Source: Draconibacterium mangrovi (GTDB lineage: Bacteria; Bacteroidota; Bacteroidia; Bacteroidales; Prolixibacteraceae). From it: DNA of 64,000 nt. The notes under the pieces were generated by a model. That model saw only the letters and a list, made by a program, of their open reading frames with translations. It was not told the DNA's origin and ran no database searches. Below are positions 30,078-33,207 of this stretch, piece by piece; positions within the stretch are counted from its first letter, which is position 1; each line of letters begins with the position of its first letter. The stretch is from contig NZ_JAAAGB010000001.1 of assembly GCF_010586825.1 (NCBI RefSeq), positions 1,240,001 to 1,304,000 of the forward strand, written 5' to 3'. Both the position numbers and the translations under genes were made by a program.

Positions 30078-30992
30078 ATGAAAAATTTTGCTGTATTGCT
30101 AATCTTAACCCTCCTTGCAAGTACTTCAATCGCTCAAAAAAAGAATGGTACCGTGTTTAATGAACACGAAACCATAGACAAAACAAGAGGCTTTTGGGAT
30201 GCTGTTAAAAATGGCGACACCGAAAAAGTGAAAACCTTTTTTGCCGACTCAGTAGTAATTGTGCGAAACGGTAATGACTGGAAAACCTCGGCTGAAAACT
30301 TTAGTAAAAACTCAAGTTACTGGACCAAAAACTTTGTGAATTTTAATGTTGAAGACTTGCCCGGCACCTATCCCGATGCGTTAGAATATAAAGACGGAAA
30401 AATGTGGGTTCAGGACTGGCTGCTGCTCACCGGAACAAACGAAAAAACCGGCATAAACCTGGATCTGCATATGCACTGTTTATACGCTTTTGACGATGAT
30501 GGAAAAATTGCCACTTTCATTCAATACTATAACAATAATGTTTTCGAGGACATACGGAATGCGCAAACTACCCGCGAAAATGGGAAGGTGTACATCAACC
30601 ATCCCCACATTGCTACGGTAAGAAAATTGCTGAATACCTATGTCGCAGAAGATGTAGAAAGTTTAAAAGGATTCTTTACTGAAGATGCCATTTTCAGTAG
30701 TTTGGCCGGAGGTTATGATGTAACTATGAACCTGGAAGAAAGAGCTGCAGATGTAGCCGACCATTTTGCCACTAGAAAAGATATTCACTTTGAGCAGGTC
30801 GGCTACCCCGATTGTATTTTTTACGAACTGAATAACGGCTATGTAGTTTATTCGTGGTGGAATTATTCATATACCGATGAAGAAAACGATAAAAAAGTGG
30901 AGATGCCTTTAATGCTTTCTCATTCATTTAACGATGACGGAAAAATAGTTCGGGAAATGGCTTATTTTAGCACAAATCACATAACAGAATAA
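30078..30992 (+). CDS. Exported protein with two NTF2/SnoaL-like domains
   Basis: 304 residues from ATG 30,078. The frame could open at a GTG at 30,030, but the shorter form starts at a clear signal peptide (MKNFAVLLILTLLASTSIAQ). Two related domains follow, at about 33-150 and 183-300. Each starts with a helix pair (WDAVKNGDTEKVKTFFADSVVI and LNTYVAEDVESLKGFFTEDAIF) and ends with a strand pair after DDDGKI or NDDGKI. This is the NTF2-like cone fold in tandem. Ligand and role are unknown; it is probably periplasmic. Confidence 0.75.
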   Translation: MKNFAVLLILTLLASTSIAQKKNGTVFNEHETIDKTRGFWDAVKNGDTEKVKTFFADSVVIVRNGNDWKTSAENFSKNSSYWTKNFVNFNVEDLPGTYPDALEYKDGKMWVQDWLLLTGTNEKTGINLDLHMHCLYAFDDDGKIATFIQYYNNNVFEDIRNAQTTRENGKVYINHPHIATVRKLLNTYVAEDVESLKGFFTEDAIFSSLAGGYDVTMNLEERAADVADHFATRKDIHFEQVGYPDCIFYELNNGYVVYSWWNYSYTDEENDKKVEMPLMLSHSFNDDGKIVREMAYFSTNHITE

Positions 30993-31008
30993 CACAATAT
31001 ATATGAAG

Positions 31009-31043
31009 AAAAAGGAAGCATCGGTATGATTGCTTCCTTTTTT
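31009..31043. terminator. Intrinsic terminator, bidirectional
   Basis: AAAAAGGAAGCA, a 10-base loop, then TGCTTCCTTTTTT. It ends the NTF2-like gene, and from the other side it would end transcription of the minus-strand tRNA/GIY-YIG array, whose last unit ends four bases away. Confidence 0.85.
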
Positions 31044-31046
31044 GTG

Positions 31047-31127
31047 TGAGGCATACTGGATTCGAACCAGTGATCCCTACCCTGTCATCCGTCAGCTGAC
31101 GGACTAAACCAACTGAGCTAACTCGGC
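31047..31127 (-). pseudogene. Disrupted tRNA-Val, unit A
   Basis: 81 bases that read as a tRNA except in the middle. The D-arm start (TTAGCTCAGTTGGTTTAG) and the 3' half (TGACAGGGTAG, variable loop, ACTGG-TTCGAAT-CCAGT T-arm, ATGCCTC acceptor) are normal for tRNA-Val(GAC). The roughly ten bases expected to hold the 3' side of the D-stem and 5' side of the anticodon stem are replaced by the 16-bp palindrome. The acceptor halves GCCGAGT and ATGCCTC do not pair, so the two halves come from different tRNAs. It should not fold into a working tRNA. Confidence 0.75.
31088..31103. repeat. 16-bp palindrome, copy 1
   Basis: TCCGTCAGCTGACGGA, its own reverse complement. It ends exactly before TGACAG of the anticodon loop (minus strand) in tRNA unit A. 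Confidence 0.95.
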
Positions 31128-31363
31128 AGAAGTGTACGAATAAAAGCACGCCCTCTGGATGATTTCAGTTGTTTCTCTCTCTTTAATGCCTCACTCTTTG
31201 TTTCAAATTTTTCTATATGAATAATCTGCCATGGTTGATACCTTTTAGTCCAACCCGTATTCCTCTCATCGTTATGAGAGAGCAAACGCTTTTCAGGATC
31301 ACTTGAATAACCAATGTATATTTTATGATACTTCGAAGAATATAAAACGTAAGTATAATACAT
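31118..31363 (-). CDS. Small GIY-YIG nuclease, copy 1
   Basis: 81 residues. The core is YYTYVLYSSKYHKIYIGYSSD, where YVL and YIG are the GIY and YIG strands. An arginine helix (PEKRLLSHN) and the SEALKREKQLKSSRGRAF tail of UvrC-like stand-alone GIY-YIG proteins follow. The ATG at 31,363 is 14 bases after the 3' end of tRNA unit B; the frame runs further left through the palindrome, but that part is tRNA sequence. The stop codon TAG is tRNA positions 8-10 of unit A. It differs from copy 2 by only a few bases. A DNA-cutting role, perhaps in mobility of the cassette, is inferred. Confidence 0.8.
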   Translation of the reverse strand: MYYTYVLYSSKYHKIYIGYSSDPEKRLLSHNDERNTGWTKRYQPWQIIHIEKFETKSEALKREKQLKSSRGRAFIRTLLPS

Positions 31364-31393
31364 GTTTGGAAATTTTGTGGGTCGTGGCAGATT

Positions 31394-31409
31394 TCCGTCA
31401 GCTGACGGA
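31394..31409. repeat. 16-bp palindrome, copy 2 (in T-arm)
   Basis: Identical TCCGTCAGCTGACGGA, here replacing the 5' T-stem end and first T-loop bases of unit B. Confidence 0.95.
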
Positions 31410-31427
31410 CCGACCTCATGCCTGTCA

Positions 31428-31443
31428 TCCGTCAGCTGACGGA
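31428..31443. repeat. 16-bp palindrome, copy 3
   Basis: Identical 16-mer at the anticodon-arm position of tRNA unit B, again ending directly before TGACAG. Confidence 0.95.
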
Positions 31444-31457
31444 CTAAACCAGCTGAG

Positions 31458-31703
31458 CTAACTCGGCAGAAGTGTACGAATAAAAGCACGCCCTCTGGAT
31501 GATTTCAGTTGTTTCTCTCTCTTTAATGCCTCACTCTTTGTTTCAAATTTTTCTATATGAATAATCTGCCATGGTTGATACCTTTTAGTCCAACCCGTAT
31601 TCCTCTCATCGTTATGAGAGAGCAAACGCTTTTCAGGATCAGCTGAATACCCAATGTATATTTGATGATACTTCGAAGAATATAAAACGTAAGTATAATA
31701 CAT
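31458..31703 (-). CDS. Small GIY-YIG nuclease, copy 2
   Basis: 81 residues, nearly identical to copy 1; visible changes include K to Q in SSKYHQIYIG and S to A in YSADPEKR. The start is 14 bases after the intact tRNA-Val, the stop TAG is tRNA positions 8-10 of unit B. The offset between the copies is 340 bases, and the flanking tRNA pieces repeat with the same offset, so this is a tandem duplication. The near identity suggests a recent event or gene conversion. Confidence 0.8.
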   Translation of the reverse strand: MYYTYVLYSSKYHQIYIGYSADPEKRLLSHNDERNTGWTKRYQPWQIIHIEKFETKSEALKREKQLKSSRGRAFIRTLLPS

Positions 31704-31717
31704 GTTTGGAAATTTTG

Positions 31718-31792
31718 TGGGTCGTGGCAGATTCGAACTGCCGACCTCATGCCTGTCAAGCATGCGTTCTAAACCAACTGAACTAACGACCC
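31718..31792 (-). tRNA. tRNA-Val(GAC)
   Basis: 75 bases that fold perfectly. The acceptor is GGGTCGT with ACGACCC, the D-stem GTTC with GAAC, the anticodon stem CATGC with GCATG around loop TTGACAG, and the T-stem GGCAG with CTGCC around TTCGAAT, with discriminator A. The anticodon is GAC, so it reads valine GUC/GUU codons. CCA is not encoded. It is the only intact member of the array. Confidence 0.9.
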
Positions 31793-31843
31793 CTACCCTG
31801 TCATCCGTCAGCTGACGGACTGAACCGGCTGAGCTAATGACTC
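31793..31843 (-). pseudogene. tRNA-Val 5' half, unit D
   Basis: Acceptor start GAGTCAT, D-arm TTAGCTCAGCCGGTTCAG, the 16-bp palindrome, then TGACAGGGTAG. It stops where the intact tRNA begins; T-arm and 3' acceptor are missing. Its 5' acceptor pairs at six of seven positions with the 3' acceptor of unit A 700 bases away (GAGTCAT against ATGCCTC), which suggests they were once one tRNA. Confidence 0.7.
31804..31819. repeat. 16-bp palindrome, copy 4
   Basis: Identical 16-mer in the anticodon-arm position of the tRNA half at the right end of the array. Confidence 0.95.
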
Positions 31844-31861
31844 AATGAAAAATAAAAGTAC

Positions 31862-31892
31862 AAAAAAAGGATTGCCGTACGACAATCCTTTT
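31862..31892 (-). terminator. Intrinsic terminator after the purine permease
   Basis: Minus strand: AAAAGGATTG, 8-base loop, CAATCCTTTTTTTG. The T-run of seven follows the stem on the minus strand, so it ends the DUF5020-permease transcript just before the tRNA array. Confidence 0.8.
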
Positions 31893-31914
31893 AACTATTT
31901 TTTAGATGGGATAT

Positions 31915-33207
31915 TTATACTCCAAACCACAGGTTTATTACTGACAATACAGCAATAACCCACATCAGCCACGAAACCTCTTTGTACTTACCTGCCACAG
32001 CTTTCAATACCACATACGAGATAAATCCAAACGATAAACCGATGGAAATACTGTAAGTTAAAGGCATTAAAATAATAGTCAGGAAGGCCGGAATAGCTTC
32101 TGAGAAATCTGCAAAATCAATTTGTTTGATATTCTTGAACATGTACACTCCAACAATTACCAATGCAGGTGCGGTTGCGTAGCTTGGCACAATACCGATT
32201 AGCGGAGCAAAGAACAGCGCCAAAAAGAATAAGGCCGCTGTAATAACTGATGCAAAACCTGTTTTAGCACCATTCGCAATACCCGAAGCAGATTCGATGT
32301 AAGTAGTTGTTGTACTTGTTCCTAACAGCGTACCGGCAACGGTTGCAATCGCGTCAGCTTCCAGAATACGGTCAACATTCTCCACTTTACCATCTTTATC
32401 AACAAAACCCGCTTCGTACGAACAGGCTACAATTGTTCCTACCGAATCAAAAAGGTCGACAAACATAAACGAGAAAATCGCACCGATCAATCCAAGGCTC
32501 AGAGCCGAAAGTATATCCAGTTTCAGTAAAAGTGGACTCATCGTTGGAGGCATAGAAACAAATGATTCAGGTGCCTGTACTTCTCCGGCCACAATTGCAA
32601 TAATTGTTGTGATAATAATTCCGTAGAAAATTCCGCCACGAACTTTTTTCACTTCCAGAATGGCAGTTATAAGTAAACCGGCCAAACCGATCAACAATGT
32701 TGGAGTAAACTTACCTAAACCAACAAATGTAGCAGGATTGGCAACAACCAAGCCCATGTTTTTAAAACCGATGAACGAGATAAACAATCCAATACCAGCT
32801 CCGGTTGCCAAACGCAGTGCAAGCGGAATAGTATGAATAATTTTTGTTCGTATACCGGTAACCGTAAGCGCCAGGAATATTACACCTGAAATGAATACCA
32901 CTCCAAGAGCAGTTTGCCACTCAACACCGGCTCCTAAAACAAGTGTGTAAGTAAAAAAGGCATTCAAACCCATTCCGGGGGCCATTGCATAAGGTACTTT
33001 AGCCCAAACACCGGCCAAAAGCGTACCAATAAGAGAGGCTACAATCGTAACTGTGATCAGTGCATTTCTATCCATTCCTGCATCGCCCAAAATCGATGGG
33101 TTTACAAAAATGATGTAGGCCATAGTTAAAAAAGTGGTTGCCCCACCAATGATCTCCTTTTTGAAAGAAGAACCACGGCCGCTGATATTAAAATATTTAT
33201 CGATCAT
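31915..33207 (-). CDS. NCS2-family purine permease (AzgA/PbuG type)
   Basis: 430 residues with about 13 helices. The start KEIIGGATTFLTMAYIIFVNPSILGDAGM is the AzgA/PbuG-group signature (guanine/hypoxanthine/adenine permeases). Also present are AMAPGMGLNAFFTYTLV, FMFVDLFDSVGTIVA and the SASGIANGAKTGFASV segment of helix 10. It takes up purine bases with protons through the inner membrane. It lies 10 bases after a gene for an outer-membrane protein, so the pair probably forms an uptake route. Confidence 0.92.
   Translation of the reverse strand: MIDKYFNISGRGSSFKKEIIGGATTFLTMAYIIFVNPSILGDAGMDRNALITVTIVASLIGTLLAGVWAKVPYAMAPGMGLNAFFTYTLVLGAGVEWQTALGVVFISGVIFLALTVTGIRTKIIHTIPLALRLATGAGIGLFISFIGFKNMGLVVANPATFVGLGKFTPTLLIGLAGLLITAILEVKKVRGGIFYGIIITTIIAIVAGEVQAPESFVSMPPTMSPLLLKLDILSALSLGLIGAIFSFMFVDLFDSVGTIVACSYEAGFVDKDGKVENVDRILEADAIATVAGTLLGTSTTTTYIESASGIANGAKTGFASVITAALFFLALFFAPLIGIVPSYATAPALVIVGVYMFKNIKQIDFADFSEAIPAFLTIILMPLTYSISIGLSFGFISYVVLKAVAGKYKEVSWLMWVIAVLSVINLWFGV

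Follow-up and report, generated by a model that had tools for sequence, protein, structure and literature searches.

In a 64,000-nucleotide stretch of a Draconibacterium mangrovi contig (hereafter the window), positions 31,047–31,843 hold an array of valine transfer RNA (tRNA) sequences on the minus strand, consisting of one intact tRNA-Val(GAC), two intact genes encoding 81-amino-acid GIY-YIG nucleases and three defective tRNA copies. In every defective copy the same ten nucleotides (nt) of the anticodon-arm region have been replaced by a perfect 16-bp palindrome, TCCGTCAGCTGACGGA. We read this, with a probability of roughly 0.45, as a tRNA/GIY-YIG cassette array resembling that of the phage nuclease SegB (discussed below), in which short palindromes from a resident pool have overwritten partial tRNA copies. 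Broken Val and Gly tRNA copies lying beside a working copy in a number of Bacteroidales hint at an undescribed rewriting of DNA at a fixed spot.

Anatomy of the tRNA-Val array

The palindrome occurs exactly four times in the array (Table 1), compared with a mean of 0.12 matches, even with up to three mismatches allowed, in 100 shuffled sequences; this is far beyond chance. Read along the minus strand, a 5′ remnant is followed by a palindrome, TGACAGGGTAG and, directly after it, the intact tRNA; then come GIY-YIG gene 1, defective unit B, GIY-YIG gene 2 and defective unit A. In the 5′ remnant and in both units TCCGTCAGCTGACGGA occupies the place of AACGCATGCT of the intact gene (10 nt, between G22 and T33; the numbering as standard tRNA positions 23–32 is our own) and abuts TGACAG, that is, T33, the anticodon GAC, A37 and G38.

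We examined whether the defective copies could still fold as tRNAs. ARAGORN called only the intact tRNA-Val(GAC) in the array, and this gene scored 68.3 bits against the Rfam tRNA family, compared with only 15.9 bits (gathering score 29) for the unit at 31047–31124. The 5′ remnant and units A and B received no ARAGORN call and, as read, have lost both the D and the anticodon stems; they do not form the cloverleaf of a functional tRNA-Val. The acceptor strands are mismatched in unit B (5′ GCCGAGT and 3′ ACGACCC) and unpaired in unit A (5′ GCCGAGT and 3′ ATGCCTC). The acceptor strand of the outer 5′ remnant, GAGTCAT, can form six of seven pairs with ATGCCTC at the 3′ end of unit A; a sister array in a related genome (G002; our handles G, C and L denote genomes, contigs and fetched stretches or loci) has GAGGCAT and ATGCCTC as its outer strands, and these pair over their full length. 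This pairing suggests that both outermost halves most likely come from a single older tRNA-Val gene, and that the material splitting it most likely comprises the intact tRNA-Val (GGGTCGT), the GIY-YIG genes and a further tRNA 5′ half.

Comparison at the orthologous locus revealed turnover of tRNA-Val alleles. The permease gene adjoining the array has relatives of 88–98% identity beside the arrays of G002, G007, G009, G017, G020 and G033; the hits in G029, G018, G004 and G006 reach only 48–51% identity and are perhaps a paralogue. At the permease-linked locus of G007 the older tRNA-Val gene is uninterrupted (GAGGCATTAGCTCAGTTGGTTTAGAGCACTACCTTGACAGGGTAG...) and stands directly after a further remnant, which reads GGACTGT..., palindrome TCCGTCGGCTGACGGA and TGACAG. 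G007 has an intact GAGGCAT gene with a GGACTGT remnant, and G002 has a GAGGCAT remnant with an intact GGGTCGT gene. In the 5.9-Mb genome of the window, the intact tRNA-Val is the sole full-length match to itself, with one additional partial match of 80% on contig C23.

An intron in the anticodon loop, or another known RNA, was considered and rejected: Rfam returned nothing over the array besides tRNA and sub-threshold matches, no group I or other intron family matched in 30900–31950 up to an E-value of 5, and the 16 nt of the palindrome take the place of 10. As regards an integrative element at a tRNA attachment site, displaced tRNA fragments can be seen, and the two array open reading frames (ORFs), to which the domain scan was confined, are both GIY-YIG.

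Table 1. Features of the array in minus-strand order, followed by the direct repeats (window coordinates)
Feature	Coordinates	Strand	Basis
5′ part (nt 1–22) of older tRNA-Val gene, GAGTCATTAGCTCAGCCGGTTCAG	31820..31843	-	Sequence; acceptor-strand pairing
Palindrome copy 4, replacing nt 23–32 of the 5′ remnant	31804..31819	.	G007 has the uninterrupted gene with AGCACTACCT here
TGACAGGGTAG: continuation of the remnant with T33, the GAC anticodon and the 3′ strand of the anticodon stem, then truncated	31793..31803	-	Sequence
Intact tRNA-Val(GAC)	31717..31792	-	ARAGORN, Rfam, genome search
GIY-YIG nuclease gene 1, 81 amino acids; 3′ end overlaps tRNA 5′ half	31458..31703	-	PF01541
Defective tRNA-Val unit B, two palindromes (anticodon arm and T arm)	31378..31467	-	Sequence
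Palindrome copy 3, replacing nt 23–32 of unit B	31428..31443	.	16-mer search
Palindrome copy 2, replacing CAGTTCG (7 nt, T arm of unit B)	31394..31409	.	16-mer search, sequence
GIY-YIG nuclease gene 2, 81 amino acids, 98% identical to gene 1	31118..31363	-	PF01541
Defective tRNA-Val unit A, made up of a 5′ half from the cassette (GCCGAGTTAGCTC...), the palindrome and a 3′ half from the older tRNA (...ATGCCTCA)	31047..31127	-	Sequence, Rfam
Palindrome copy 1, replacing nt 23–32 of unit A	31088..31103	.	16-mer search
300-bp direct repeat, first copy (amplified GIY-YIG/tRNA cassette)	31081..31380	-	98% identical to 31421–31720
300-bp direct repeat, second copy	31421..31720	-	98% identical to 31081–31380

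Recurrence and boundaries of the replacement

We scanned 84,980 species genomes for the pattern TTGGNTYAG followed by TCCGYCRRYYGRCGGA and obtained 43 stretches. Palindrome-bearing tRNA remnants were found in 42 of these, all from Bacteroidota (37 genomes by accession prefix); the remaining one (L153, Zixibacteria) is not a tRNA and was taken as a chance match. TGACAG directly followed the palindrome in nearly all 43 stretches. The usual parts were partial 5′ copies (each with a leader, nt 1–22, the palindrome and the sequence from T33 onward, cut short either within the variable loop or at the T-loop GGTTC), an intact tRNA-Val, a GIY-YIG gene (19/43) and a downstream palindrome-bearing copy; all four parts occurred together in seven stretches (L140, L152, L157, L160, L166, L175 and L179). 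A search that fixed neither boundary yielded 39 matches in 16 of 37 genus genomes. Among the 32 matches in a tRNA context, 31 begin directly after AG, the exception being in G033. In an order-wide sample, 9 of 393 genomes had matches.

The replaced 10 nt are identical in position across tRNA-Val(GAC), tRNA-Val(CAC) (L162), tRNA-Gly(GCC) and tRNA-Gly(CCC). For example, GGTAG-AGCACGACCT-TGCCAA of tRNA-Gly(GCC) becomes GGTAG-palindrome-TGCCAA, and the same segment is replaced in tRNA-Gly(CCC) (GGTAG-AGCATCAGCT-TCCCAA). A loose filter over all fetched loci left 98 distinct contexts, 82 of which read AG-palindrome-T. The other 16 comprised two tRNA-like contexts with the palindrome shifted by 4 nt (L178 and L179), one tRNA-like context with other boundaries (L264) and 13 judged to be non-tRNA; hence 82 of 85 tRNA contexts share the boundaries, a partly ascertained proportion, with two of the pattern scans fixing one boundary each, most requiring the fixed portion of the stem to match perfectly, and units within one genome being non-independent. 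In the 82 units the variable stem pair (positions 5/12) was C-G in 46 and T-A in 36 and was never mixed, although the patterns permitted mixtures; the stem was perfect in 81, and the Val-GAC form (TGACAG) accounted for 63. Units with two palindromes, or with a replaced T arm or acceptor, also occur, and lengths and truncation points vary; at these other tRNA places the replaced length, read by eye, was 7–9 nt (including L104), compared with 10 nt in the anticodon arm.

An earlier note on the window had described tRNA-Val-like units, one intact and three with about ten bases replaced by a palindrome ending before TGACAG. Our reading confirmed this description as far as it went; it had overlooked the T-arm copy in unit B and the two GIY-YIG genes, the latter fitting its hint at homing nucleases. 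Its view that the event was replacement rather than insertion, and site-specific within the anticodon arm, is supported by the same nt 23–32 being affected in four tRNA species across Bacteroidales, and replacement or swapping was found at other loci as well.

The palindrome family and the GIY-YIG nuclease

The genome of the window contains 16 exact copies of the 16-mer, and by inspection none of the 12 outside the array lies in a tRNA. The more general form TCCGYCAGCTGRCGGA was found 29 times in this genome and in 40 of the 101 genomes searched (its own included), and G002 has 59 copies of TCCGYCNNNNGRCGGA. The proposal of the earlier note that the palindrome marks the junction of one recombining element is not supported: the family is dispersed and lies mostly outside tRNAs in this genome, and 24 of the 43 stretches gave no GIY-YIG match nearby (one of the 43 being the chance match, and contig ends limiting the search).

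We compared 19 non-tRNA loci with those of relatives and found replacement or a swap, with flanks still alignable, at eight. The palindrome stands against a loop, AATAAATT, at L002; against TCCCGAT...ATCGGGA (25 nt) at L007; and against TCCAT..TTTTGGA at L307. It stands against CCCTAAAGGG at L304, AATATTC/AATGTTT at L310 and TCCGGCTTTAGCCGGGA at L324, and at these three loci a few flanking bases differ as well. About 20 neighbouring bases are unchanged where TCCGTCAGCTGACGGA stands against TCCCGATAAATCGGGA (L012) and where TCCGTCGGTTGACGGA stands against TCCCGATGAATCGGGA between rpsI and rpsB as read from ORFs (L325, 230–290), the latter perhaps a ribosomal-protein leader. Inverted repeats flanking palindrome copies had a mean run of 4.5, compared with 3.5 in controls, and reached at least 6 bp at 7 of 41 copies, compared with 4–5% of controls, so that hairpin tips are favoured as sites without being the rule. 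Rfam gave no match at gathering score in seven other palindrome loci.

Three further observations concern hairpins and palindromes. The region L012:1370–1600, just 3′ of an apolipoprotein N-acyltransferase-like gene (ORF reading), is about 90–95% identical in the nearer genus genomes and has no Rfam match, and its hairpin tip is swapped between species. A separate motif in several genus genomes, consisting of a palindrome of up to 26 bp (TGTCATCCGTCAACTGACGGATGACA in L091) and then AGAGGGGTGAAATAAAG or similar, was seen at L085, L090, L091, L098 and L102, with pattern-only matches at G000:C4:37102 and C13:2510; it has the palindrome core and TGACAG in common with the tRNA remnants. At L294, L296, L297, L313 and L316 an outer hairpin, CATTRCGAGG...GAAGYAATC or its reverse, is repeated with differing inner palindromes, as if the inner part behaved as a module.

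Both array ORFs match PF01541 (60.4 and 59.3 bits, cut-off 22.6; E = 2e-16 and 5e-16), which points to a GIY-YIG catalytic domain in the encoded proteins. The window nuclease also showed a weak match (E = 0.007) to a homing-endonuclease PHROG, and no match in an NCBIfam search. The ratio of nonsynonymous to synonymous substitution rates (dN/dS) between species was low, 0.05–0.37, where dS was computable (ten nuclease copies, 45 pairs, with no dS value in 23 pairs and saturation in many others); for the two window copies it was 0.76, a value resting on very few changes.

The GIY-YIG cassette is linked to tRNAs and amplified in tandem. GIY-YIG relatives were found in 35 of 37 genus genomes. We fetched 35 stretches, picked mostly from GIY-YIG hits and partly for the palindrome; 29 contained a GIY-YIG match, and 27 of these 29 also an ARAGORN tRNA call. 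The upstream tRNA neighbours were Val(GAC), Val(TAC), His, Gly, Phe, Ser, Asp, Ala and Met(CAT); in L135 a called tRNA-Leu lies on the opposite side of the GIY-YIG gene, and in L133 a called tRNA-Cys directly follows it. A defective tRNA copy stands after every GIY-YIG gene read in detail (seven stretches: L104–L107 and L110–L112). In the Val(TAC) arrays of G029, G002, G008 and G034 these defective copies have their anticodon arm replaced by another hairpin, TCCCGAT-loop-ATCGGGA or a close variant.

Two arrays of G009 showed further forms. After tRNA-His (L105, G009:C4:3731000–3736500), six GIY-YIG copies are arranged in tandem with a period of about 446 bp, and in each of the three defective tRNA-His copies read the T arm is replaced by TCCCGATTCAGGTCGGGA. 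The defective tRNA-Gly(GCC) copies of L106 (G009:C4:3708500–3711500) carry a long hairpin insert of the CCTGCCCGGCTGCGCCATTCAGACAGG type in the T loop.

Carriage by mobile elements was also considered and rejected. One contig in viral_contigs matched the D-arm and palindrome pattern, by pattern only (L379, IMGVR_UViG_3300043765_000024); among the 8 of 26 plasmid records viewed, the matches covered 69 bp at 81% and lay in rhizobial plasmids; and the five phage records matching the nuclease were each below 41% identity.

Proposed explanation and comparison with known systems

The sequences themselves show the anatomy of the array, the replacement with its fixed boundaries, its recurrence in four tRNA species, the palindrome swaps elsewhere, the low dN/dS of the nuclease and its presence next to part of the arrays; the cutting, the copying mechanism and the order of events are what we infer. 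A cassette with an intact tRNA-Val, one GIY-YIG gene and the 5′ half of a tRNA would have inserted itself into an older tRNA-Val(GAC) gene, splitting it, and would later have undergone tandem duplication. In the partial copies, nt 23–32 would then have been overwritten, and not just interrupted, by a resident perfect palindrome (TCCGYC-NNNN-GRCGGA), and a similar process elsewhere in the genome may replace or swap short segments and hairpin tips. The initiating lesion could be a break, or a fork that has stalled, within the part of the tRNA gene encoding the D and anticodon arms, produced by the GIY-YIG nuclease where one is present. Repair by break-induced template switching would let copying exit the tRNA at nt 22, acquire a palindrome from the resident pool, resume at T33, exit again in the variable or T loop and restart upstream. 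In this way the scar and the rebuilt intact tRNA may arise side by side in one event. The number of palindromes tracks that of GIY-YIG genes (rho = 0.54, P = 5e-4; per Mb, rho = 0.43, P = 0.007), and also genome size (rho = 0.46), these and the correlation given below being computed over 37 genomes uncorrected for kinship.

Several observations weigh against the proposed overwriting beside a GIY-YIG cassette. Cleavage by GIY-YIG is a candidate activity, and the role of the nuclease in the replacement is putative, given that a GIY-YIG match lies within 1.5–1.8 kb in only 19 of the 43 pattern-scan stretches (contig ends limit this search). G035 has seven GIY-YIG matches and zero palindromes of the TCCGYCAGCTGRCGGA form, and the defective copies of other isotypes, His and Gly in G009, bear changes elsewhere, for example in the T arm, instead of this replacement. 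No swap was found at 11 of the 19 non-tRNA loci: point changes were gradual at L009, L001 showed different hairpins or point changes, comparison with relatives gave no swap at L008, L010, L011, L306, L311, L322 and L326, and L318 and L319 had no usable relative. Of 34 pairs of remnant and intact neighbour, 23 have identical acceptor strands and 17 have identical 3′ anticodon-stem strands as well; most pairs therefore resemble products of the duplication of a single gene, with no obvious nuclease resistance of the intact copy. A nuclease-resistant rescue tRNA as a general rule was rejected on these counts.

A quite different possibility is that an ancient tRNA-Val pseudogene underwent one ancestral replacement, which homing, horizontal transfer and tandem duplication then spread; the shared boundary would in that case reflect common descent rather than site specificity. 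Palindrome units do travel within amplified cassettes, and TGACAG predominates. However, the same boundary is found in tRNA-Gly(GCC) and tRNA-Gly(CCC) with their own anticodon stems and leaders, both palindrome types occur, and the remnant has the acceptor strand of the adjoining intact tRNA in 23 of 34 pairs; we consider this history unlikely. The palindromes might instead be ordinary elements of the repetitive extragenic palindromic (REP) type, moved by a Y1 or REP-associated tyrosine transposase (RAYT) and landing by chance in degenerate tRNAs. Their dispersal, the presence of Y1_Tnp in 35 of 37 genus genomes, the excess of flanking inverted repeats and the CGTC contained in T-type palindromes would agree with this, but the CGTC lies within the stem, by inspection the copies are not accompanied by a constant unpaired tag, whether GTAG or CGTC, and flanks vary between copies. 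In addition, DNA is replaced, not simply inserted into, at 8 of 19 loci, palindrome number does not clearly follow Y1 transposase number (rho = 0.25, P = 0.13), and G031 has 14 Y1 genes but no palindrome of the searched form, which makes this origin distinctly unlikely.

Selection might also act at the RNA level and so keep the stem perfect, if the leader-bearing 5′ remnants with their hairpin serve in processing, termination or regulation ahead of the tRNA. In favour of this are the perfect stem and the covarying variable pair (perfect matches being largely demanded by the search), terminator-like use at some other loci and the removal of both the D and the anticodon stem with nt 23–32. We nevertheless regard it as improbable, given that unit length and truncation point vary, that double-palindrome, T-arm and acceptor replacements exist, and that several non-tRNA copies are unlike terminators by eye. 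That the palindrome-bearing genes are working tRNAs, with an anticodon arm re-made from the palindrome (a CTGACGG loop with GAC), is highly improbable: ARAGORN draws such an arm for the L114 unit and calls some other units tRNA-Val, but the L114 stem contains a G-A mismatch, many remnants are truncated, and the halves of units A and B stem from different tRNAs. For C-type palindromes (46/82 units), which have neither the GAC nor the stem, a re-made arm is impossible. Several arrays stop at contig ends, as an assembly, adapter or cloning artefact might, an outcome that the earlier note had named as refuting its reading. The same array is, however, present in the isolate assembly of Draconibacterium sediminis JN14CK-3 (L109 and L157), and palindrome-bearing remnants also occur in independent assemblies, other than metagenome-assembled genomes, of Maribellus YY47 and CM-23 and of Sunxiuqinia dokdonensis DH1; an artefact is therefore very unlikely, and we give it almost no weight.

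Overwriting of partial tRNA copies from a resident palindrome pool remains the reading that we prefer. A bolder form of it, possible though doubtful, is that an as yet unrecognised DNA-writing activity of Bacteroidales overwrites short, often hairpin-associated segments from a resident library of palindromes, or swaps one palindrome for another in place. In tRNAs it would act at nt 23–32, beside a GIY-YIG cassette or under its control; the cassette would cut the tRNA, split the old gene and provide its successor, in effect a natural cleave-and-replace system. Bacterial genomes are rich in short palindromes. The system described here offers a fixed target, its units can be ordered through their tandem arrangement and through the turnover of alleles at a single orthologous locus, and it sits in cultured genera with a candidate nuclease in cis, so that the question of how tagless palindromes copy themselves becomes directly testable.

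Among solved structures, the sequence relatives of the window nuclease are 1ywl (UPF0213, E = 2e-9), 7wme (an SLX1 homologue, E = 4e-5) and 1zg2 (UPF0213, E = 2e-4), the UPF0213 entries being listed as hypothetical proteins; we know of no tRNA cassette for relatives of the UPF0213 or SLX1 type. The palindromic elements of Rickettsia are longer, in-frame insertions in coding genes; they are likewise palindromic repeats within genes, whereas here a segment is replaced at a fixed tRNA position. A literature search over titles and abstracts, with few subscription journals, returned no description of tRNA arrays with palindromes, and a text search with four 14-mers of the family returned one unrelated paper only.

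REPs as described in PMC3733652 carry unpaired GTAG or CGTC tags, and the CGTC class, reported from Bacteroidetes among other phyla, has no dedicated transposase. The present family resembles them in consisting of short, dispersed, hairpin-forming palindromes. It differs in being a perfect 16-bp palindrome without unpaired tag or tail, with CGTC solely inside the T-type stem, in replacing short segments or swapping palindromes, and in its fixed position in tRNA remnants. SegB of phage T6 is described as a free-standing GIY-YIG homing endonuclease beside tRNA genes and sets a precedent for amplification via a short stretch of homology that the 5′ region of the tRNA has with the 3′ region of the nuclease gene (PMC13096335). 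The array shares with it the GIY-YIG gene beside tRNA genes, the tandem amplification of the tRNA-nuclease segment and the short homology of the same two regions. Unlike SegB, it lies on a Bacteroidales chromosome, encodes a minimal 81-amino-acid protein, has defective tRNA copies with a palindrome in place of nt 23–32 and would cleave only as a candidate activity. If the nuclease makes the break, the cassette would give bacterial chromosomes their own counterpart to SegB, one by which a tRNA gene is replaced. The novelty lies where two known kinds meet, homing GIY-YIG cassettes and dispersed palindromes, and the overwriting activity could prove categorically new.

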